From: Stigmatella aurantiaca DW4/3-1
Lineage (GTDB): Bacteria > Myxococcota > Myxococcia > Myxococcales > Myxococcaceae
Assembly (NCBI RefSeq): GCF_000165485.1
Contig: NC_014623.1
Coordinates: forward strand, 8,450,893 to 8,514,892
Direction: 5' to 3'
DNA: 64,000 nucleotides
Part shown: in pieces, positions 45,447 through 62,225 of the stretch
Layout of the letters: each line of letters opens with the position of its first letter
Position numbering within the stretch: the stretch's first letter is position 1
Notes under the pieces: model-generated
Seen by the model: only the letters and a program-made list of their open reading frames with translations
Databases searched by the model: none
What the model was told of the DNA's origin: nothing
Translations under genes and position numbers: made by a program

Positions 45447-46199
45447 AGCTCAGACTCCTGGCCCCATCGTCGTAGTCCGGGAACCGCTGAAACAGCAGCC
45501 GCTCCCGAGTGCGCACGAACTGCTTCAGCTCGGGCGGCAAGTTGGTGGAGCATAAGACGAGCATGGGCCTGAGCGAAGCCGTCCGCTTCGAACACAGGAC
45601 GGATCGTGCGTGGCTGCTCAGCGGGATGAGCTGGCCGTCGGCATCCCCCGTGAACGGCACGGCGTAGAGGCCGCCCTCTCAGCTCCCACGGTTGAAGCGG
45701 GGACGGTCTTCCCTTTTCGAGGGGAGCTCTCGCTTCACCTCCACGCGAGCGGCGGCCGAGGGCTTCGGAGCGCGCCGAGGACTCGCCTCGGGCGGAAGAA
45801 CAGGCGCGGGTGCGGCGGAAGGAGCCTCGTTCGCCTCCAGGATGGGTCCACTCGTAGGCAATGAGAAGGAGCGCCCATTCGCCAAGCGACTCAAGTCGGG
45901 TGGAAGACGAACTCAAGCATGAAGCAGCCGCCGGGCGCAGGCGGACGTCTCCGTGGCAATACGGAGCCCTGGGGCTCGTCCCCTCCACCGGCGCAGCGTA
46001 CGGCCTTGCTTCCTGCGCCTCCCTGCCCCCGCCCGCCGCCGAGCCAGTGGGCCCCCATTCCGCCTGTTTTCCTCGGACCTCTCCGAGCGCATCGTGCCTG
46101 CCCGCCCGCCCTGCGACTTGGAAACACTCAAGCAAGAGGGCTCAGGACTGAAACTGCTCTCTCCACCCTCACAAAAGGTGTGTGGTATCGAGTGCTTGG
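45447..46199. other. Gene-poor stretch before the giant kinase, with one possible fragment
   Basis: No intact gene is supported. On the minus strand, about 45455-45680, a codon-biased frame reads EGGLYAVPFTGDADGQLIPL, LVLCSTNLPPELKQFV and LLFQRFPDYDDG and then runs out of phase into the SDR start; an in-frame stop lies just upstream. It may be a fragment of an unrecognised gene. The rest, to 46199, is GC-rich and presumably carries the kinase promoter. Confidence 0.3.
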
Positions 46200-49100
46200 A
46201 TGGGTACCTCAACCACACCTCACGAAGCGGCGAGCAGTTCCTCTTCCGCCACCCAGCTGCCGGGCGAGCCTCAAGGCGCAGCGGCGGCGCTGCCCGCTGG
46301 CGGGGGCGAGATGGGCGCCCTCATGCGCTCCATCAACTGGGCTCAGACTCCCGTGGGGCCGCTGGAAACGTGGCCCCAGTCGCTGCGCACGGCGGTCAGC
46401 ATCCTGCTCGAATCGCGCTTTCCGATGTACATCGCGTGGGGGCCCCAGTTCGTTCAGTTCTACAACGATGGGTTCCGCCCGATTCTTGGCTCGACCAAGC
46501 ATCCCGGCGCCATGGGCCGCAGCTCCCAATCCACGTTCGCAGAGGGCTGGCACCTCATCGGTCCGATGTTCGAGGAAGTGAGACAAGGGAAGGCGGTCGG
46601 CTCCGAAGACTGGATGCTCCCGCTTGACCGCAATGGTTATCTCGAGGAGTGCTACTTCACCTTCTCGTACAGTCCGATACGAGACGAGAGTGGTGGCGTC
46701 GGAGGTGTTCATGTCACCGTCACCGAAACGACCGGCCGGGTGCTTGGCGAACGACGGTTGCGGACACTGAGAGACCTTGCGGCGCGCGCGGGACCGGTGA
46801 GGCGGGAACAAGATGCGTGGCGAGAAGCCGCCCAGGTGCTGGAAGGCAACGTTTTGGACGTTCCCTTCGCCTTGCTGTACCGGATGAGTGACGCGGGCGA
46901 GAGGCCCGAACTGGTGGAGACGGCCGGCTGGGGGACGGATACAGCGGCCGCTGTTTCGCTCATGGGCGCACCTCAGGCAAACCTGCTGTGGCCCTTCGCG
47001 GATGCGGCCGCGACCCTGACCCCCCAGTTCGTCCCGGATGTGCGTGCCCGCTTCGCGGAGCTTCCCAGAGGCACCTGGCCGGAGGCTCCTCACTCGGCCT
47101 GGGTATTACCCATTTCCCGCTCAGGCTCCAAGCGCCTCCATGGCTTTCTCGTCGCGGGCTTGAGCGCGAGGCGTGCTCCCGACGACGACTACCGTGGATT
47201 TCTCGGGTTGGTGGCGGATCACATTGCCACAGCCATCAGCAGCGCGTGCGCCTACGAGGAGGAAAAGAAGCGGGCGGAGGCACTGGCTGAGATTGACCGC
47301 ACCAAGACGGCTTTCTTCAACAACGTGAGCCACGAGCTTCGCACTCCGCTCGCGCTGATGCTCGGGCCCATCGAGGACGGCCTGGAGGACACCGAATATC
47401 CCCTCCCCCCCAAGCAGCGGGAACGGCAGGAAGTGGTGCACCGCAACGGCCTGCGCCTGCGGAAGCTCGTCAACATGCTGCTCGACTTCGCCCGCATGGA
47501 GGCTGGGCGCGCCCAGGCTTCCTTCGTCCCGACGGACCTGTCCGCCCTCACGATCGAGCTCGCGAGCAACTTCGGCTCGGCGATGGCGGCCGCCGGTCTG
47601 GCGATGGTGGTCGACTGCCCAGTCCTCCCCGAGGCCGTCTACGTGGACCCGGCCATGTGGGAGAAGGTTGTCTTGAACCTCCTCTCCAACGCCTTGAAGT
47701 TCACCCTCCAGGGGGAGGTTCGCATTGCGCTGAGGTGGCTCGGAGATCGCGTGGAGCTCACCGTTCAGGATACGGGAACGGGCATGCCGGAGGCGGAGCT
47801 GCCCCGCATCTTCGAGCGCTTCCACCGGGTCGAGGGAGCGCGAGGGCGCAGCCATGAGGGGACGGGCATCGGGCTCGCGCTGGTGCAGGAGCTGGTAAAG
47901 CTGCACGGCGGCAGCGTGACGGTGAAAAGTGTCCTCGGCCAGGGAAGCACTTTCACGGTCAGCCTCCCGGCTGGCGCTGCGCACTTGCCCCAAGAGCACC
48001 TGGGAGTTCCCCGGATGCTCCCCTCCACTGGGAGTGAATCCCGCTTGTTCCTTGCGGAGGCCTCCCTCTGGAATCCGGTGCCAACTCCCCCCGCTGCGCC
48101 GTCCCCTCCGCTCTCCGAAGCCCGTATCTTGTTGGCGGACGACAACGCCGACATGCGGATCTATCTCTCACGCCTCCTGTCTCCGCACTGGAGCGTGGAG
48201 CCGGTGAGCGAGGGCTCACTGGCCCTCGCCGCCGCGCGGGCGAATCCGCCCAGCCTCATCATCTCCGACGTGATGATGCCAGGGGTGAATGGTCTGGAGC
48301 TGGTTCAATCCCTTCGCGCGGACAACCGCACCCGCACCATTCCCATCCTGCTCCTGTCTGCACGTGCAGGCGAAGAGGCCACCATTCAAGGGCTGAACAG
48401 TGGCGCGGACGAGTACCTCGTCAAGCCCTTCTCCGCGAAGGAACTCCTGGCGCGCGTCACCGCGCTGCTCACGGTCTCGCAACTGCGCCAGGCGGCGGTC
48501 CGCGCGGAACGCGCCCACGTGGAGGACACCCTGCGTTTTCTCGAGGAGTCCCGCCGCGCCACGCGTCTTCGCGAGGACATGCTCGCCGTCGTCAGCCACG
48601 ACTTGCGCTCGCCGCTCACCGCCATTCGCACTTCCGCCGAACTCCTCCGGCGCATTCCCCCCGAGGGTGAGCCGCTCGCCCGCGTGCACAAGCAGGCGGA
48701 CGCCATTCGACGTTCCGCCGACCGGATGAACCGGCTCATCGATGACCTGCTGGATTTGGCGAGCATTGATGCCGGAACACTCTCCGTCCAGGCTCACCCG
48801 CAGAGGGTCGATGAGCTCGTCCGTGATGCCCGGGAATTGTTCGAGCCTCACGCGGCCGAGAAAGGCTTGCAGCTCGCCTTCGAAGTGGAGCCAGGACTCA
48901 TCCTATCGTGCGACAAGGAACGGATCCTTCAAGCACTCGGAAATCTGCTCTCCAACGCGATCAAATTCACGCCCCCTGGGGGCAGCATCCTCCTGCGGGC
49001 CCATGCCGAGGAGGGGACCGAGGACATCCGTCTCAGCGTAGCGGATACCGGCCCAGGGATCCCCCTTGCCGCGCAACCGCACATCTTCGATCGTTACTGG

Positions 49101-52100
49101 CACGGGGTGCAGAACAAGCGCGAGGGACATGGCCTGGGCCTCTCCATCGCCAAGGGCATCGTGGAGAGCCACGGAGGGCGCATCCGGCTCGAGAAGACCT
49201 CTGGCGAGGGCAGCACCTTCTCTTTCTCGCTTCCATCCGGACAACAGAAGGCGGGCGCGGTCTCACCAGCACACCGCCCCGCACTCCTGCGTCCGGGCGC
49301 CGAGGAGAGTTTCATTCAAGGCGGCGGAGAGATGGGCGCGCTGATGCGTTCCATCGACTGGTCCAAGAACTCGCTGGGCCCGGTCGAAGCCTGGCCCCAA
49401 TCTCTGCGGACCTCCATCAGCACGATGCTCCGCTCCCCTTACCCCATCATTCTGTTCTGGGGACCCGAGCTCCGCATGCTCTACAACGATCCGTTCCGGC
49501 CCATCCTGGGGGCGAAGCATCCCCAGACCCTGGGGGCGCGCGGGCATGAGGCGCTTGCCGAGGAGTGGGCGCTCCTCGGCCCTTTGATGAAGCGCGTTCA
49601 CGAGACGGGAGAGCCCCTGTTCATCGAGAACGGGAACGTTAATTTTGCACGGCGGCCTGGCGGGTTGAGAGAAGAGGCTTACTTCACCTGGTCCTACAAT
49701 CCGACCATCGGTGAGACGGGGGAGATCGCGGGCCTCTTCGCCATCGCGAGCGAGACGACGCGCCAGGTGGTGGGTGATCGCCGGCTGGGGATACTGCGGG
49801 AATTGTCCATCCGGGCGGCGCTCGATAAGACGGTCGAAGGGGTTTTCCGCTCGCTGGAAGAAGTTCTTGCGCAGGCCGGCAACGATCTGCCTTTCGCGCT
49901 CCTCTACGTCGTCAAGGCCGAGAAGGCGCACCTGGTGAGCTGCTCCGGCCTTGAACGGGGAGCCCCCGCGGCTCCTCTCGAGCTGAGCCTTGGCGACACC
50001 GACCCGTGGCCGCTCACCCATGTTGCCAGCCTGAGGCAGGAGGCACTGGCCGAAGATCTTCACTTGAAGTTTGGCAGCCTTCCCGGCGGCCCTTGGCCCG
50101 AGCCAGCGACGCGCGCCCTCGTCCTTCCCGTGCCCATGGGCGCGGATACCGCGGGCATGGGCGTGCTGGTGGCGGGCCTGAGTCCACTGGTCGCGCTGGA
50201 CGACGAGTACCGTGGCTTCCTACAACTTCTGGCGCGGCAACTCGCGGCCAGCATCTCCAGTGCCCGTGCCTATGAACAGGAGAAGCAGCGGGCAGAGGAG
50301 TTGGCCCTGCTGGATCAGGCGAAGACGGCATTCTTCAGCAATGTAAGCCATGAATTCAGGACCCCGCTCACGCTCATTCTCGGTCCCGTCGAGGATGCGC
50401 TGTCCAAGCCGGCAAAAGCGTTGACAGGAGAGAAGCTCGACCTGGTTCGCCGCAATGCCTTGCGGCTCTACAAGATGGTCAACACGCTGCTCGACTTCTC
50501 GCGGATGGAGGCGGGCCGGGCCCAGGCCCACTACGTGCCGGTAGACCTTTCCGCCGTGACGCGCAACCTCGCGAGTGCCTTTCAATCCGCGGTGGAGAGC
50601 GCGGGCTTGAGGCTGGTGGTGGATTGCCCCCCTCTGCCCGAGCCCCTCTACGTCGACCCAGAGATGTGGGAGAAGGTTGTCTTGAACCTTCTCTCGAATG
50701 CGGTGAAGTACACCTACGAAGGTGAGATCCGTGTTGTCCTCAGGTGGCAGGACGACCATGCGGTCCTCACCGTCCAGGACACAGGGGTGGGGATTCCCGA
50801 AGAAGAGCTTCCGCGCGTCTTCGAGCGCTTCTACCGCGTCCGTGCCACCCAGGGACGAAGCCACGAGGGCACGGGCATCGGTCTCGCCTTGGTGCAGGAG
50901 TTGATGAAGCTTCACGGCGGTAGCATCTCGGTGGAGAGCACGCTCGGTGAGGGCACGGCCTTCACCTTGCGGCTGCCGCGCGGTTCGGCCCACCTGCCTC
51001 CAGAGCGAATCGAGCGCACGCCCCGGCCGGGCTCTTTCGCCCCGGGGGCCGCGCCCTTCGTCGAGGAGGCGCAGCGCTGGTCCGCGGATGCCGCGGGCAC
51101 GGACAGGCCCAGCGCCGAAGCGTCCGATGATCTGGTATTGGATCTGCCTGAAGAGATTGCGCGCTCCCGCATCCTCCTCGTCGACGACAACGCCGATCTG
51201 CGCACCTACGTTGCTGGGTTGCTCGGGCGCATCTTCCCCCACGTCGAGACAGCCACGAATGGACAAGACGCGCTCGAGCGGGTGCGCGTCCAGCCGCCGG
51301 ACCTGGTCCTCGCCGATGTGATGATGCCGGGGTTGGACGGCTTTGGGTTGGTGCGCGCTCTTCGCGCCGATAAGGACACGCGCGCCATCCCCATCATCCT
51401 GCTCTCTGCGCGAGCGGGCGATGAGTCCACGGTGGAGGGTTTACAAAGCGGAGCGGATGACTACCTGGTGAAGCCCTTCTCTGCTCGCGAGCTCCTGGTC
51501 CGGGTGCGCACCCATCTCGACATGGCTCGCGTACGCCGAGAGGTGGTCCGCAACGAGATTGAGAAGAAGGTGCTGCGCGAGTCCGTGCGGGTGCGAGACG
51601 AGTTTCTCAATCTCGTCAGCCATGAACTGCGCACGCCCGTGAGCGCCCTGTCACTCAACTTTCAGTCCTTGGTCCGAAGCCTGGGCCGTGAAGGCGGTGA
51701 CGAGGCTTCGCTGGAAGCGGTCGGGGTGAAGGCGCAAACGACACAGAAACAGCTGCACCGCTTGGCGCGCCTCGTAGAGCAGTTGCTGGACGCGTCCGAG
51801 TTCGTCACCGGATGCCTGAAGCTCGCACGGCAGGAAGTAGACTTGTCGGGGGTCGCGAGCGCCGTCGTGGAACAGGCGCAGAGCAAGGCCGCTCACGCCG
51901 GTTGCGTCCTCACCTTGAATGCGCCCTCGCCCGTCATGGGATACTGCGACCGGGCGAGGCTGCACCAGCTCCTCGAAGGCCTCCTCGACAACGCACTCAA
52001 GTTCGGGGCGGGAAAGCCCATTGAGGTGGCTGTGTGGAGGGATTCGGACCATGCCCTCCTCACGGTGATGGATCACGGCGCAGGCATTGAGCCGGAGGAT

Positions 52101-52286
52101 GAGGAGCGCATCTTTGGGCGCTTCGAGCGCGCCGTTTCCGAGAAGAATTATGGCGGGTTCGGGCTGGGATTGTGGATCTCTCGCCACATTGCGGAAGCGC
52201 ACGATGGCAGCATTCGCCTCAGGCCCACGGAGGGAGGAGGAGCCACCTTCACGGTGGCGCTCCCGCTGAACGAGACGGTTGGGTGA
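46200..52286 (+). CDS. Giant hybrid histidine kinase built from an internal tandem duplication
   Basis: 2028 residues from ATG 46200 (GTG 46182 is the alternative). Two copies of the same unit follow each other: PAS-like sensor (about 35-180 and 1037-1190, both with GGGEMGALMRSI and WPQSLRT), GAF-like domain (about 195-355 and 1197-1357), HisKA with His378 and His1384 (SHELRTPL, SHEFRTPL), HATPase, receiver with Asp690 and Asp1706 (SDVMMPG, ADVMMPG; conserved VKPFSA), then a second HisKA with His800 and His1808 and a second HATPase. So four kinase cores and two receivers sit in one soluble chain with no transmembrane segment. ATP-lid motifs are intact. No response-regulator gene is adjacent; output may go through an Hpt or a distant regulator. 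Confidence 0.9.
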   Translation: MGTSTTPHEAASSSSSATQLPGEPQGAAAALPAGGGEMGALMRSINWAQTPVGPLETWPQSLRTAVSILLESRFPMYIAWGPQFVQFYNDGFRPILGSTKHPGAMGRSSQSTFAEGWHLIGPMFEEVRQGKAVGSEDWMLPLDRNGYLEECYFTFSYSPIRDESGGVGGVHVTVTETTGRVLGERRLRTLRDLAARAGPVRREQDAWREAAQVLEGNVLDVPFALLYRMSDAGERPELVETAGWGTDTAAAVSLMGAPQANLLWPFADAAATLTPQFVPDVRARFAELPRGTWPEAPHSAWVLPISRSGSKRLHGFLVAGLSARRAPDDDYRGFLGLVADHIATAISSACAYEEEKKRAEALAEIDRTKTAFFNNVSHELRTPLALMLGPIEDGLEDTEYPLPPKQRERQEVVHRNGLRLRKLVNMLLDFARMEAGRAQASFVPTDLSALTIELASNFGSAMAAAGLAMVVDCPVLPEAVYVDPAMWEKVVLNLLSNALKFTLQGEVRIALRWLGDRVELTVQDTGTGMPEAELPRIFERFHRVEGARGRSHEGTGIGLALVQELVKLHGGSVTVKSVLGQGSTFTVSLPAGAAHLPQEHLGVPRMLPSTGSESRLFLAEASLWNPVPTPPAAPSPPLSEARILLADDNADMRIYLSRLLSPHWSVEPVSEGSLALAAARANPPSLIISDVMMPGVNGLELVQSLRADNRTRTIPILLLSARAGEEATIQGLNSGADEYLVKPFSAKELLARVTALLTVSQLRQAAVRAERAHVEDTLRFLEESRRATRLREDMLAVVSHDLRSPLTAIRTSAELLRRIPPEGEPLARVHKQADAIRRSADRMNRLIDDLLDLASIDAGTLSVQAHPQRVDELVRDARELFEPHAAEKGLQLAFEVEPGLILSCDKERILQALGNLLSNAIKFTPPGGSILLRAHAEEGTEDIRLSVADTGPGIPLAAQPHIFDRYWHGVQNKREGHGLGLSIAKGIVESHGGRIRLEKTSGEGSTFSFSLPSGQQKAGAVSPAHRPALLRPGAEESFIQGGGEMGALMRSIDWSKNSLGPVEAWPQSLRTSISTMLRSPYPIILFWGPELRMLYNDPFRPILGAKHPQTLGARGHEALAEEWALLGPLMKRVHETGEPLFIENGNVNFARRPGGLREEAYFTWSYNPTIGETGEIAGLFAIASETTRQVVGDRRLGILRELSIRAALDKTVEGVFRSLEEVLAQAGNDLPFALLYVVKAEKAHLVSCSGLERGAPAAPLELSLGDTDPWPLTHVASLRQEALAEDLHLKFGSLPGGPWPEPATRALVLPVPMGADTAGMGVLVAGLSPLVALDDEYRGFLQLLARQLAASISSARAYEQEKQRAEELALLDQAKTAFFSNVSHEFRTPLTLILGPVEDALSKPAKALTGEKLDLVRRNALRLYKMVNTLLDFSRMEAGRAQAHYVPVDLSAVTRNLASAFQSAVESAGLRLVVDCPPLPEPLYVDPEMWEKVVLNLLSNAVKYTYEGEIRVVLRWQDDHAVLTVQDTGVGIPEEELPRVFERFYRVRATQGRSHEGTGIGLALVQELMKLHGGSISVESTLGEGTAFTLRLPRGSAHLPPERIERTPRPGSFAPGAAPFVEEAQRWSADAAGTDRPSAEASDDLVLDLPEEIARSRILLVDDNADLRTYVAGLLGRIFPHVETATNGQDALERVRVQPPDLVLADVMMPGLDGFGLVRALRADKDTRAIPIILLSARAGDESTVEGLQSGADDYLVKPFSARELLVRVRTHLDMARVRREVVRNEIEKKVLRESVRVRDEFLNLVSHELRTPVSALSLNFQSLVRSLGREGGDEASLEAVGVKAQTTQKQLHRLARLVEQLLDASEFVTGCLKLARQEVDLSGVASAVVEQAQSKAAHAGCVLTLNAPSPVMGYCDRARLHQLLEGLLDNALKFGAGKPIEVAVWRDSDHALLTVMDHGAGIEPEDEERIFGRFERAVSEKNYGGFGLGLWISRHIAEAHDGSIRLRPTEGGGATFTVALPLNETVG

Positions 52287-54298: not shown

Positions 54299-54299
54299 C

Positions 54300-54572
54300 C
54301 TACCCTCCAGCCATCGCAGGAACGATCGTGATGCGATCCCCTTCCGTCACGGGAGTGGCCAGTTGCTGCAAGAAGCGGATGTCTTCGTCGTTGTGGAAGA
54401 TATTGATGTAGCGCCTCACCGCGCCCTTGTCGTCCAACAACCGCGCACCGATGCCTGGGAAGCGCTTCTCCAGGTTCTCTAGCACTTCGCCCACCGTCAT
54501 TCCCGCCGTGCTCGCCTCACTCTGCTGCTGGGTCAGGCTGCGAAAAGGGGCCGGAATACGCACCAGCGCCAT
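54300..54572 (-). CDS. MoaD/ThiS-type sulfur-carrier protein
   Basis: 90 residues with a beta-grasp pattern: VRIPAPFRSLT, VGEVLENLEKRFPGIGARLL, RRYINIFHNDEDIRFL and a closing GDRITIVPAMAGG. The C-terminal Gly-Gly is the site that is adenylated and turned into a thiocarboxylate in this family. It resembles MoaD more than ThiS in length and in the RFPGI segment. It follows the HAD gene by three bases in the ThiG-like cluster and is the likely sulfur donor. No MoeB/ThiF-type activating enzyme is in the window, so one from elsewhere would have to serve. Confidence 0.87.
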   Translation of the reverse strand: MALVRIPAPFRSLTQQQSEASTAGMTVGEVLENLEKRFPGIGARLLDDKGAVRRYINIFHNDEDIRFLQQLATPVTEGDRITIVPAMAGG

Positions 54573-54575
54573 GGG

Positions 54576-55277
54576 TCAATCCTCCTTACCAATCGTGATC
54601 AGCACATTGCCCTGAAACACCAACTCCAGGCCGCCCGGCTTCGCCCTGCACTCCACATCCGCGAGATCCTGGACGACATACCGTGCCCCGCGCTCCCGCA
54701 GATCGGCTCCATCCCCTGTGGTAAGGCCCAGGCAAACCGCCCCCGCGGCGTTCCCCGCCGCGATGCCGCTCGGCGCATCCTCCACCACCAGGCACCGGTC
54801 CGCGGGAATCCCCAACCGCTTCGCCCCTAGCAGGTAGCAGTCCGGTGCGGGTTTGCCATTCTGGATGTCTTCCCAGGTGACGCAGACCCGGAAAGACGGC
54901 GCCAGGCCCAAGGCCGCCAGCACGCGCTGGACGCGTGTCTTGGAGCCACTGGTCACCAGCGCCAGCGGCACCCCCGCGGCAGCGAGGCGCTCGACCAGCG
55001 CCTGGGTCCCGGCAATCCCGCTGAAGTTCAACCGGGGCTCTGCCTGCCGGACCTGGTTCAGGAGGTGCTCCCGTGATTCCCCTTCCAGCTCCGCGAACAA
55101 AGCCGTCACCGTGTGCTCGGGCGAGCGCCCCAGAACGTAGCGGCGGATGTCTTCCTCGGTCAGGTGCTTGCCGTGACCGCGTGCGATCTCCGTCCACAAT
55201 GCCGCGACGGCATGGTGGGTATCGATCAGCACGCCATCCATGTCGAACATCACGGCGGAGACGGTGTCTACCGGCAT
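54576..55277 (-). CDS. HAD-family phosphatase in the ThiG-like cluster
   Basis: 233 residues from ATG 55277, with GGGGAAGGG upstream; an ATG 11 codons earlier exists. Motifs: VMFDMDGVLIDT, LVTSG, Lys in QNGKPAPDCYLLGA and VVEDAPSGIAAG. The cap domain is of the beta-phosphoglucomutase/sugar-phosphatase subclass. It is a paralogue of the HAD at 40363-41064, sharing the C-terminal VQD segment. Position between a ThiG-like synthase and a sulfur carrier suggests it removes phosphate from a sulfur-containing sugar phosphate; this is inference from context. Confidence 0.86.
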   Translation of the reverse strand: MPVDTVSAVMFDMDGVLIDTHHAVAALWTEIARGHGKHLTEEDIRRYVLGRSPEHTVTALFAELEGESREHLLNQVRQAEPRLNFSGIAGTQALVERLAAAGVPLALVTSGSKTRVQRVLAALGLAPSFRVCVTWEDIQNGKPAPDCYLLGAKRLGIPADRCLVVEDAPSGIAAGNAAGAVCLGLTTGDGADLRERGARYVVQDLADVECRAKPGGLELVFQGNVLITIGKED

Positions 55278-55322
55278 TGGGCCCTTCCCCACGGAGTCCA
55301 CGGCGTGCACACGGATCCTTGA

Positions 55323-56090
55323 TCAACCCGCGGCGGCCACCGGGGCATCCTGGCGCTCGACAGCCGCCAGCCGCCCCGCGAGCACCGCGTGCTTCATCGC
55401 CTCGGCCATGCGGACGGGATCAGGCGCCTGCGCGACGGCCGTATTGACCAGCACGGCGTCGGCCCCCAGCTCCATGGCCTGCGCGACCTGGGCGGGAGAG
55501 CCGAGCCCCCCCTCGACAATCACGGGGATCGAGACCGCGTCGAGCACCTGCCGGAGCGACTTCGGGTCGACGAGTCCACGTCCGCTGGCGACGGGCGCGG
55601 CCATGATCCGGAGCGCGCAACACCCCATCCGCTCGAGTTCCCGTGCAACTTGGATGTCGGGCAGGATGAAGGGCATGACCGCACAGCCCTCGTTCAACAA
55701 CTCCTGGGCGGCTTCCACCGTCTGAGCATTGTGCGGCAGGTTGTCCGCGGGCCGGACATCGAGCTTGAACACCTCGATTCCATGGGCGCGGCGAAGGGAC
55801 CTCACCGTCTTGAGCGCATCCTCCTTGGAGTGGGCGAACGACGTCGTGCCGATCCAATTGAACCGGTCCAGGGGCACCGACTGATCAATATCGGAGAGCA
55901 GCAGGCTGGTCCGGGTCTGCTCCAGATCCAGGGTCGTGATGAACACGTCACAGCCGCTGGCCGTGAGCACCTTCGCCACCAGTTCGGCCGACACGTACTG
56001 CTCGATCCCCAGGATCAGCCGCGAGCGGAACTTCATCGGACCGACCACGAGCCATGGCTCTGAACCTGACTGCTCACCGTCACGAAGCAT
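55323..56090 (-). CDS. ThiG-like sulfur-insertion enzyme, divergent
   Basis: 255 residues, the length of ThiG, from the ATG at 56090 (GAAAGG upstream; an in-frame start 36 codons earlier is less likely). The TIM-barrel Lys that forms the imine with the sugar phosphate is kept (VFKLDV, K109), as are the closing VEGGLGSPAQVAQAMELGAD and VLVNTAVAQAPDPVRMAEAM. Several active-site loops differ from thiazole synthase: NTAG is replaced by GTTSF, KLEV by KLDV, VDAGIG by VEGGLG, and PLGSPIGSG by MAAPVASG. It therefore probably inserts sulfur into a different phosphosugar, as BexX does in BE-7585A synthesis. No TPP riboswitch precedes it. Confidence 0.83.
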   Translation of the reverse strand: MLRDGEQSGSEPWLVVGPMKFRSRLILGIEQYVSAELVAKVLTASGCDVFITTLDLEQTRTSLLLSDIDQSVPLDRFNWIGTTSFAHSKEDALKTVRSLRRAHGIEVFKLDVRPADNLPHNAQTVEAAQELLNEGCAVMPFILPDIQVARELERMGCCALRIMAAPVASGRGLVDPKSLRQVLDAVSIPVIVEGGLGSPAQVAQAMELGADAVLVNTAVAQAPDPVRMAEAMKHAVLAGRLAAVERQDAPVAAAG

Positions 56091-56163
56091 GGCTGCACCT
56101 TTCAGAGAAGATGAGATGGAAGCGATCAACCCTGGGAGGGTGTTCAACCCCTCTTCCAATGGC

Positions 56164-56177
56164 CGAGATATTTCTCG
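56164..56177. promoter_or_regulatory. Small palindrome upstream of the ThiG-like gene
   Basis: CGAGATATTTCTCG has 5-bp arms (CGAGA/TCTCG) around TATT, 74 bases before the ThiG-like start and inside an AT-rich patch between GST and ThiG-like genes. Candidate operator or promoter element only. Confidence 0.25.
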
Positions 56178-56305
56178 TTTTTCGGTCCTATCTGGCAATC
56201 CAGCTTAGCGATCTTTCCGGCGGGCCGCTACCCTCCAGCGCTTGGAGTGGTTGGCCGGAGCATGGCGCGCAGGTGCCTTTTCAGCGCGCCCGTTCCTGGG
56301 GCCTC

Positions 56306-56935
56306 TCAGGCCTTGTCAGCAGGCAGGCGGCCATCGGCGATGGCGGCCTTCTTGTAGGCGGGACGCGCGGTGATGCGCGCCACGTAGTCCGTGAAGATCG
56401 GTTCCTGGAGACCCGGCGCCTTGAACGAAAGGGCCCAGGCGATCTGAGAGCCCACGTAGACGTCCGCCGCGCTGAACTGCCCGCCAAGGATGTATGGGCC
56501 CGGGGTGAGCATCTTCTTGAACGCGCCGAGCGTGTCCTCGTAGCTGCCATAGCCGATGGTGCTCTTGCTGTCGACCTGCGGGCGCTTGAGCATCATGTCG
56601 AGCAGGGCAGGCTCGAAACACCCCGCGCCAAAAAAGAGCCAGCGCAGATAGGTGCCGCGGCGCGTGTCGCCTGCCGACGGCGCGAGCCCCGCCTGCGGGA
56701 AGGCATCGGCCAGGTAGGTGATGATGGCCGCCGTCTCGGTGACGACGGTGCCGTCATGGACGAGCGCCGGCAACTTGCCCATCGGGTTGACGGCGAGAAA
56801 TTCCGGTGACTTCTGCTCTCCTTTTTGCAGGTCGATGCGCACGACGCGGAAGGGCGCTCCCACCTCGTGCAGCATCCAGTGGACCATCTGCGCCCGCGAC
56901 TGAGGGTTGTGATAGAAAACGAGGTCTCCGCTCAT
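56306..56935 (-). CDS. Glutathione S-transferase-like protein
   Basis: 209 residues. N-terminal thioredoxin-like domain with VFYHNPQSRAQMVHWML, the cis-Pro in GKLPALVHDG and the gamma-glutamyl-binding ETAAIITYLAD; C-terminal helical domain with the conserved FSAADVYVGSQIAWAL. The first Ser/Gln positions suggest a Ser-type GST. It lies 215 bases upstream of the ThiG-like gene on the same strand, so it may be the first gene of that cluster or independent. Conjugation with a thiol co-substrate is expected from the family; the substrate is not known. Confidence 0.86.
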   Translation of the reverse strand: MSGDLVFYHNPQSRAQMVHWMLHEVGAPFRVVRIDLQKGEQKSPEFLAVNPMGKLPALVHDGTVVTETAAIITYLADAFPQAGLAPSAGDTRRGTYLRWLFFGAGCFEPALLDMMLKRPQVDSKSTIGYGSYEDTLGAFKKMLTPGPYILGGQFSAADVYVGSQIAWALSFKAPGLQEPIFTDYVARITARPAYKKAAIADGRLPADKA

Positions 56936-57001
56936 GGGGTGCTCCTCTCAGGAAAGGCGCGGAGCATGCCCGGTTTCGCATCGAGCGGAGAAAAATCCTT
57001 C

Positions 57002-57109
57002 AACGGCTACCAGGCAGTGGAGGCAGGCGATGCCCAGCAAGCCCTGCCCTCCATCGAGGGCAGCGAACGTCTGGACCTGCTCGTCACGGACGTGGGCCTG
57101 CCCGGGATG
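57002..57109 (+). pseudogene. Fragment of a response-regulator receiver domain
   Basis: The frame reads NGYQAVEAGDAQQALPSIEG and then RLDLLVTDVGLPGM, the typical beta2 to beta3 part of a receiver domain including the phospho-acceptor Asp in TDVG. Neither the acidic pair before it nor the Lys region after it is present, and no start codon belongs to it. Confidence 0.5.
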
Positions 57110-59917: not shown

Positions 59918-60092
59918 TCCGACCCCTCATCCGCCAGGCGATGCGGCGCCGTGGAAGCGAACGCCCACCGCGTTGCAGTCGCGCTGGCCTGGGTTCAAAG
60001 TCGTCCGGGCATGACGCCGACGGATCAGGGGCGCGGCTTCACAGGAGGGGGCGCATCCGCTACCATTCCCTCACCATTGCCTCAGGAAATTG

Positions 60093-62225
60093 ATGTCACA
60101 CCAGTGGACGTTGCCCGGTCCTTCCTCGTCGTATCTCGTCGTCTGGTGGTACGACGCGGCGGCCAAGGACACCAGCCGCCGTGTCTCCCCCTCATTCGTG
60201 CGCGGCGCGCTCGATGGGTGGCTCCGCTCGCGCAGGCAGAGCCTCAGGGAGATCTACGTCGCGTTGGAGGGCGGCCGATCCACGAACCTCTCCGCGGCGG
60301 GAAGAGACATCCGAGACGAGCAACTCAAGAAAAGCATTGGTGAGGCATTCCTCGCGGGCAAGCTGGTGGCCCTCTCGCTCGACAGCTCAGCGATCTCCAG
60401 CAAGGCCTCGACCCAAAGAGGGAACCCAGTCCTAGGTGGCGTACCTTCGGACAAGCCGTCGGAAGGAGAAGCTCGGCTCGTGAGCCAACTGCCCGCCGAG
60501 GGCGAGTATGTCGGCGAGATTGGGATCGTCTCCTGGGACGGGACATCGGAACTCCGGTTGCGTTCCAGCCCGAAGACGGGGAACAACGTCATCGGAAACC
60601 TGGCCTTCAACACGCATGTTCAGGTGATTAAGCGCCTTTCCGGAGGATGGTTGTACGTCAGTACGCGTGACGGCCTCATGGGCTATGTGGCCACCGAGTA
60701 CATCTGGTGTGCCCCCGTGCACCCACTCCCAGAGCCCAACGTGCTGCTTCAGCGGGTCGCCCCCGGCAGGCCGGGCTACGCCATCTCCATCGCCAAACAA
60801 CACTATTCCCAGAGCGTGAAGTGGGGCCAAGACCTTCGTTTTTACGTGGCGGTGCTGGCCTTGGTGAACCGGCGCCCCCTCCCCCCCTTCGTCGAGGGAT
60901 GGAAGACGCTGCAGTTCACGGCTGGGGAGTTCATCTGGGTCCCGAGCCCGGTGTTTGCCAAGGCGATGCGCGGCAAGGTCAGCAGCGGCTCGTACACCTA
61001 TGAAGTGGCGGAGGCACTGGGCATCGCCGATGCCATCGAGCGAGTGGGTCAGCTTCAGGCCGACCTCCGCAAGGCCATCCAGCTGTCCCTCCAATACATC
61101 CCTCAGGCCGTCGGGAAGCACGTCGAGAAGGCTCTCATCTCCATCCTGGTGGCGCTCCTCGAGATAGCGGTCATGGCGATGCTGCTGCTCGCCATCTGTA
61201 CAGCGATTGGCGCCGCGATCGGGGCGCTGGCTGGCGGCGTAGGGGCTGCTCCCGGCGCCGCAGTTGGCTTCGAGGTGGGGCTGGCGATTCTCGATTGGTT
61301 GGGGTTGGCCTTCCTCGTTACATGGGCCGCGGACGCTGTCGTTCGCATCGGGTCAGCCTTCGCCACCTTTTTCAGCAGCGTGTGGAACGCCCGCGGCGAT
61401 TCCAAAAAGCTCGACCAAGCGGCGCGCGAACTGGCCGAGGCGATCGGCGTCCTGGCTGGCGTGATTGTCGAAGCGCTCGTCATGTGGGCGTCGGCCAAGG
61501 GCGTCCAGGCCGCGCTCAAGGTGCTCAAGGGCACTGCGGTGGAGAGAGCCTTCGGCGAGAGTCAGCTCGGTTCATGGCTTCGAGAGCGGGTGACGGACGC
61601 CGGGAAAGGCAAGTCTCCTCGTGAGAACCTAGAGTCCGGGAAGAACAAGGAGCAGCCCAAGACAGGCGGCCAGGAGAAGGCTCGGACGAAACCGGCTGAA
61701 GAGGTGCCCGGTTGGCCACCCAAAGCTCCTCAGGGAAAGAAACCCAAGTTGGGGGCGAAGGGGGCTGCTGAGTGGCGTTATGAGCGGTACCGCCATCAAC
61801 AGTTCAAGAAAGGAAGGAAACAGGAGGATCTCCTCGACTTCGAGACCTACAAGAGACGTCATTACAAGGCTGCCTCCGAGGGGGGCCGCCCAGGACGCAG
61901 CGGGGGAGGAAACCAAGTCAAGACCCGTCAGTTCCTCGAGCAGAAAGAGGGTTTCCAGAATACTGAAACCACGGTGCTGAATGGCAAATACGTCGACCTC
62001 ATCAAGCCCAATGAAAAGGGCGGCATCGATTACGTGGAGGTGGATGCACTGCTCAAGAAAGGCACTCCCATCAAGCGGCTGCGTGAAAAGCTCAAGATCG
62101 AACTGGACGGTTTGAAGGAAGGAGACAGGCTTATCTACATCGACAAACTGGATCCAGCCAAACGCATTATTTATGAGCATGGCGAAAAGCCCAGCGTGGT
62201 TGACACCAAGACATGGAAGGATTGA
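60093..62225 (+). CDS. Polymorphic toxin-like protein
   Basis: 710 residues. Residues about 140-205 form a bacterial SH3 domain (ELRLRSSPKTGNNVIGNL, GWLYVSTRDGLMGYVATEYI). Residues about 230-305 look like a LysM-like unit (LRFYVAVLALVN, TAGEFIWVPS). A long hydrophobic, Gly/Ala-rich module (about 345-470; IGAAIGALAGGVGAAPGAAV) is of the type seen in translocated toxins. A charged linker follows, then a C-terminal domain (about 590-710; QVKTRQFLEQKEGFQNTETT, KYVDLIKPNEKGGIDYVEVD) that would be the toxic part. The Asp/Glu/Asp pattern is nuclease-like but not diagnostic. A small gene starts 13 bases later, as for toxin-immunity pairs. Confidence 0.7.
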   Translation: MSHQWTLPGPSSSYLVVWWYDAAAKDTSRRVSPSFVRGALDGWLRSRRQSLREIYVALEGGRSTNLSAAGRDIRDEQLKKSIGEAFLAGKLVALSLDSSAISSKASTQRGNPVLGGVPSDKPSEGEARLVSQLPAEGEYVGEIGIVSWDGTSELRLRSSPKTGNNVIGNLAFNTHVQVIKRLSGGWLYVSTRDGLMGYVATEYIWCAPVHPLPEPNVLLQRVAPGRPGYAISIAKQHYSQSVKWGQDLRFYVAVLALVNRRPLPPFVEGWKTLQFTAGEFIWVPSPVFAKAMRGKVSSGSYTYEVAEALGIADAIERVGQLQADLRKAIQLSLQYIPQAVGKHVEKALISILVALLEIAVMAMLLLAICTAIGAAIGALAGGVGAAPGAAVGFEVGLAILDWLGLAFLVTWAADAVVRIGSAFATFFSSVWNARGDSKKLDQAARELAEAIGVLAGVIVEALVMWASAKGVQAALKVLKGTAVERAFGESQLGSWLRERVTDAGKGKSPRENLESGKNKEQPKTGGQEKARTKPAEEVPGWPPKAPQGKKPKLGAKGAAEWRYERYRHQQFKKGRKQEDLLDFETYKRRHYKAASEGGRPGRSGGGNQVKTRQFLEQKEGFQNTETTVLNGKYVDLIKPNEKGGIDYVEVDALLKKGTPIKRLREKLKIELDGLKEGDRLIYIDKLDPAKRIIYEHGEKPSVVDTKTWKD

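Follow-up and report, generated by a model that had tools for sequence, protein, structure and literature searches.

A BexX-type synthase with its own sulfur carrier and phosphatase in a conserved gene unit of Stigmatella aurantiaca: a candidate thiosugar operon

Gene content of the locus

We analysed a stretch of 64,000 nucleotides from the genome of Stigmatella aurantiaca DW4/3-1, here called the window; the genome consists of a single contig of 10,260,756 bases. The features considered in this study are four genes on the minus strand and the leader that precedes them (bit scores are those of the Pfam matches).

56936-57007, minus strand: conserved leader 5' of the GST gene; homology with two other members of the genus (genomes G037 and G038) runs to 57007 and ends there
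56935-56306, minus strand: GST-like protein that heads the conserved unit (GST_N, 68.7 bits)
56090-55323, minus strand: BexX-type (ThiG-fold) synthase, predicted thiosugar-phosphate synthase, with imine lysine K109 (ThiG, 195 bits)
55277-54576, minus strand: HAD-IA phosphatase, probably for a sugar phosphate (HAD_2, 104 bits)
54572-54300, minus strand: CysO-like sulfur carrier of 90 amino acids, beta-grasp, C-terminus PAMAGG (ThiS, 61.7 bits)

The order GST, ThiG-like gene, HAD and carrier, with gaps of 215, 45 and 3 bases, had been described in a first-pass annotation of this DNA and was reproduced here, as were the four gene families named in it and the Gly-Gly end of the beta-grasp carrier. 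An alternative GTG start of the HAD gene lies upstream at 55310, and its use would reduce the gap to the ThiG-like gene from 45 to 12 bases. The promoter of the operon and its ribosome-binding region probably lie in the leader. Elsewhere in the window, the plus strand encodes a hybrid histidine kinase of 2034 amino acids (46182-52286), built of two similar tandem halves with about 45% mutual identity, and a protein of 711 amino acids containing DUF6861 and bacterial SH3 domains (60090-62225).

The synthase, the carrier and the linked enzymes

The ThiG-like protein resembles BexX more closely than it does any thiazole synthase. In a search of all solved structures its best match was 4n6e (BexX, a 'putative thiosugar synthase') with 286 bits, the best ThiG reaching 144 bits. 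The AlphaFold model of the protein (pLDDT 87, pTM 0.86) displays the ThiG-like TIM-barrel fold, and the top three Foldseek matches to it were BexX structures (including 4n6e and 4n6f; BexX/CysO and BexX/G6P crystals) at 57% identity, followed by ThiG structures at 32-35%. A maximum-likelihood tree of 63 proteins, the analysis that the first-pass annotation had proposed as a check, placed the synthase outside ThiG and in one clade with BexX, homologues from Streptomyces plasmids and a Klebsiella plasmid protein, with branch support of 100/100; the Klebsiella branch is long and its exact placement is unsure.

The altered active-site loops that had been noted earlier are real. Eleven positions separate all eight BexX-type sequences, which represent about three independent lineages (Stigmatella, actinomycetes and Klebsiella), from all 110 ThiG sequences compared, part of the latter being canonical ThiG found among the matches listed in a scan of genome contigs with the synthase. 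The BexX-type residues, with those of ThiG in parentheses, are E30 (G), Q31 (K/R), T53 (A), T82 (N), S84 (A), D111 (E), R113 (I/L), P144 (D), R161 (M), R171 (mostly L) and E193 (D). In the alignment from the search of solved structures, D111 and E193 correspond to Glu98 and Asp182 of Bacillus subtilis ThiG, which we take to be the catalytic acids of that enzyme. The imine-forming lysine, K109 in the motif VFKLDV, is present as had been claimed and is kept in all BexX-type and ThiG sequences compared. Relative to the 110 ThiG sequences and the 63-protein tree, the synthase shows neither the ThiG residue signature (G-K-Y, K-x-E, D-A-G) nor a position in the ThiG clade. Judged by sequence, then, the ThiG-like protein is BexX-type and not a thiazole synthase. 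BexX-type genes bear the labels 'thiamine biosynthesis protein ThiG', 'nitronate monooxygenase' or 'hypothetical protein' in public records, and the 11 diagnostic residues allow them to be distinguished from thiG.

The best solved relatives of the carrier are CysO of Mycobacterium tuberculosis (3dwg_C, 70.9 bits) and, with 61.7 bits, the CysO crystallized together with BexX (4n6e_B); it aligns with both over its full length and ends in AGG, as expected for a CysO-type sequence. Three PF02597 proteins are encoded in the genome: besides the operon carrier, these are a fusion resembling MoaD-MoaE and another CysO-like protein, 66% identical to that carrier. The gene for this second CysO-like protein lies elsewhere in the genome, next to those for a JAB-domain protein and a ThiF, so a dedicated CysO-like paralogue seems to belong to the operon. 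A rhodanese-MoeB type E1, also present in the genome, is a candidate that could charge the operon carrier.

For the HAD protein, the nearest models are those of sugar phosphatases and of the beta-phosphoglucomutase family, both below cut-off. Alignment with a beta-phosphoglucomutase reference sequence indicated that the HAD catalytic motifs are kept (D12, D14, K142, E166 and D167) and that the mutase residues His20 and Arg49 are not conserved; with these residues absent from that alignment and the scores below the cut-offs of the beta-phosphoglucomutase models, assignment as a beta-phosphoglucomutase was rejected. Among its solved relatives is the carbohydrate phosphatase TM_1254, and on a plain reading the protein, a member of a large family whose substrates are not readable from sequence, is probably a sugar-phosphate phosphatase. 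The HAD alone is not a pathway marker, because its closest plasmid relatives lie in HypE/HypF clusters or at other sites without a ThiG-like gene. The closest of them, at 36% identity, belongs to plasmid clusters of Citrobacter and Salmonella (L164 4013-9883; L165 4979-10893) that comprise a cysteine hydrolase, HypE, HypF, the HAD phosphatase and an MFS transporter.

Conservation and spread of the unit

In a survey of 96 genomes from the family and 195 from the phylum, a BexX-type gene was found only in the source genome and in two further members of the genus, G037 and G038. When the window was compared at the DNA level with the 46-47 kb surrounding the gene in these two genomes, homology (89-92% identity) was confined to positions 54299-57007, with none on either flank. 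The homologous block is an exact unit of 2.7 kb, about 91% identical, which begins about 72 bp upstream of the GST gene, contains the four genes and about 70 bp of upstream sequence, and ends one base past the stop codon of the carrier gene. All four genes are under purifying selection, with dN/dS values of 0.08-0.23 (about 0.2 for GST). Because the block is conserved at a different locus in two species and its genes show such dN/dS values, the grouping is not due to chance; and since it occupies two unrelated chromosomal places, the unit either moved whole or had its surroundings replaced. The GST gene lies inside the block conserved in G037 and G038 and is, on that evidence, part of the unit. 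The linkage of carrier and phosphatase to the synthase, which had been pointed out from the window sequence, thus holds as one exact unit in three Stigmatella genomes, and the neighbourhood search that had been suggested found the set conserved in the two sister species as well as, in divergent form, in Klebsiella.

This distant and previously undescribed set is carried by the Klebsiella oxytoca plasmids NZ_CP093272 and NZ_CP069944, in the order PTS EIIA-like gene, 86-amino-acid protein ending in MAGG, ThiF-type E1, BexX-type synthase and HAD-IA hydrolase, with a DeoR regulator on the opposite strand. Its synthase is 36% identical to that of Stigmatella and shares the E-Q-Y, K-L-D and Glu-for-Asp signatures. 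The small protein had no match in Pfam and failed to align with the Stigmatella carrier, and its designation as a putative carrier rests on position, size and MAGG end. The HAD proteins of the two sets are only 30% identical and have different best solved relatives, so the association of a phosphatase with the synthase may have arisen on two occasions. On the plasmid of a second strain (K. oxytoca FDAARGOS_1332, L167 8001-10087) the same set occurs with the synthase gene split by an IS3 element, the gene being intact in the other strain. No DNA resembling the Klebsiella set was found in Escherichia coli genomes.

Beyond these occurrences, the Streptomyces plasmid homologues (55-57% identity) adjoin trehalose-6-phosphate-synthase-like and type II polyketide genes. 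At the thresholds used, none of 369 gammaproteobacterial and none of 398 pseudomonadotal genomes had a BexX-type gene, these samples containing no positive control; the same profile strongly recovers the Klebsiella and Streptomyces copies, and the genome survey of spread covered the family, the phylum and these small proteobacterial samples. A scan of viral contigs gave no relative of the synthase, and a phage search gave only matches of 30-36% identity, which are ThiG where annotated. A literature search that covered open-licence papers gave no description of a stand-alone form of BexX.

A possible thiosugar pathway and its relation to known systems

Our preferred reading, which we regard as probable, is that the block forms a self-sufficient operon for making a small sugar that bears sulfur, and that its parts act as follows. 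An E1-like enzyme encoded elsewhere in the genome, either of the MoeB-rhodanese type or the ThiF whose gene adjoins the second CysO-like gene, would adenylate the carrier at its Gly-Gly end and convert that end to a thiocarboxylate. The synthase would bind a sugar phosphate, probably glucose-6-phosphate, as an imine at K109, and the carrier thiocarboxylate would donate its sulfur to give a phosphorylated thiosugar, most likely 2-thio-glucose-6-phosphate, after which hydrolysis would release the carrier. Dephosphorylation by the HAD protein would yield the free (2-)thiosugar, and the GST-like protein would probably handle the thiol by reduction, de-glutathionylation or conjugation, a role that is a guess. 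The family of each part, the residue signatures, the conservation as a unit and the purifying selection are computed results. From them we infer the substrate, the site of sulfur insertion, the order of the steps and the roles of HAD and GST, and both the C2 position of the sulfur and glucose as the sugar are presumptions carried over from BexX. The earlier suggestion of a thiosugar or other thio-metabolite gains support from the conserved gene set and from the BexX clade, and the step from there to an actual thiosugar is the conditional part.

Substrate specificity is not readable from sequence, the Klebsiella relative is very divergent, and the product should differ from that of the bex clusters because a partner resembling trehalose-6-phosphate synthase is missing; one could thus imagine a synthase that acts on some phosphorylated compound leading to something other than a 2-thiohexose, with phosphatase and GST finishing a different thio-metabolite or conjugate. 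We consider this unlikely, since the protein matches BexX, which was crystallized with G6P, at all 11 diagnostic positions and at 57% identity, and is linked to a HAD of the sugar-phosphatase type. That a BexX-like gene was acquired sideways and merely came to lie beside an unrelated phosphatase, GST and carrier seems very improbable. Both GST and HAD proteins belong to large, widespread families, and the Stigmatella and Klebsiella HADs, at 30% identity, are not close relatives; but the exact four-gene unit at two unrelated chromosomal places, purifying selection, gaps of 3 and 45 bases and the recurrence of the synthase-HAD pairing in Klebsiella all speak against incidental neighbours.

The synthase could also have taken over from ThiG, providing these species with the thiazole moiety of thiamine. 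The first-pass annotation had asked whether a second, complete thiG operon exists in the genome, and had held that the absence of another thiG, combined with clustering of the protein within canonical ThiG, would count against a thiosugar pathway; the genome, unexpectedly, has no second ThiG, but the clustering half is false. The source genome keeps thiC and thiE, and in the genus the two kinds of gene are mutually exclusive, three species each: of seven species, G039-G041 have thiS-thiG-thiE without a BexX-type gene, and four (the source genome, G036, G037 and G038) lack thiG, three of these having the BexX-type gene. Against replacement stands G036, a genome rated 100% complete that has neither gene and yet keeps thiC and thiE. 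All four ThiG-less members retain thiE along with thiC and its associated TPP riboswitch, which suggests that they lost de novo thiazole synthesis. In the source genome thiE adjoins a clear thiM, a salvage gene, so that thiazole salvage is possible and the lack of ThiG is explained. Moreover, the active site is BexX-type, and the synthase is paired with neither ThiS, thiamine genes nor a thiamine riboswitch: the thiS model gives just 16 bits on the CysO-like carrier, and the only TPP riboswitch of the genome adjoins thiC, in agreement with the earlier remark that the locus has none. Given G036 and the thiM-thiE pair, we set aside replacement of ThiG as quite improbable.

Returning to a sulfur-sugar operon, the genes suggest that predatory soil bacteria such as Stigmatella may make a previously undescribed compound of this kind. 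More tentatively, and as a real possibility that we would not yet call likely, bacteria other than actinomycetes may produce a free 2-thio-hexose by means of a mobile, self-contained cassette of carrier, BexX-type synthase and phosphatase, the product serving as a new low-molecular-weight thiol or as a diffusible antimetabolite and not as a polyketide decoration. What the locus offers is a BexX-type synthase combined, in one small movable myxobacterial operon, with a phosphatase and a CysO-like carrier of its own; a distant relative occurs in a similar K. oxytoca set. If the predicted function is true, thiosugar synthesis would extend beyond the angucycline antibiotics, and a set of three or four genes should suffice to test it or to produce a thiosugar.

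Several known systems share components with the Stigmatella unit. As in the CysO/Mec/CysM cysteine pathway of M. tuberculosis, the carrier is CysO-like, but the block contains no cysteine synthase or JAB protease. With ThiG-ThiS it has in common the TIM-barrel fold, the imine lysine and, as predicted, the use of sulfur from a beta-grasp carrier ending in Gly-Gly; it differs in that the synthase stands outside the ThiG clade, the E/D acids and loops are changed, and ThiS and control by a thiamine riboswitch are lacking. As a separate observation, a MoaD/ThiS protein, ThiF, YcaO and TfuA are encoded in a row on a conjugative plasmid of Legionella sainthelensi (L170 4739-8102), which looks like a sulfur-carrier-linked thioamide cassette. 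The Klebsiella set resembles the Stigmatella unit in combining a BexX-type synthase, a HAD hydrolase and a small MAGG-ended protein, and differs in having its own ThiF-type E1, a PTS EIIA-like gene and DeoR, and no GST.

The closest parallel is BexX itself, described in reviews (PMC5321127, PMC11323500 and PMC4784017) as a 2-thioglucose-6-phosphate synthase whose partners are MoeZ and carriers of primary metabolism. No other characterized enzyme of this kind was found within the open-licence literature. BexX, from the bex cluster for BE-7585A in Amycolatopsis orientalis, and the Stigmatella synthase are 56-57% identical and have the same fold, the lysine and the 11 diagnostic residues; the carrier is of the CysO type, as in the BexX complex, and the genome has an E1 of the MoeB-rhodanese type. 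We nevertheless rejected the label of a bex-type cluster, because neither trehalose-6-phosphate-synthase-like nor type II polyketide genes lie near the window genes and because the unit moves without its neighbours. The bex pathway borrows its carrier from primary metabolism, whereas the Stigmatella carrier is encoded beside the synthase, in a unit that, unlike bex, also links a HAD phosphatase and a GST.
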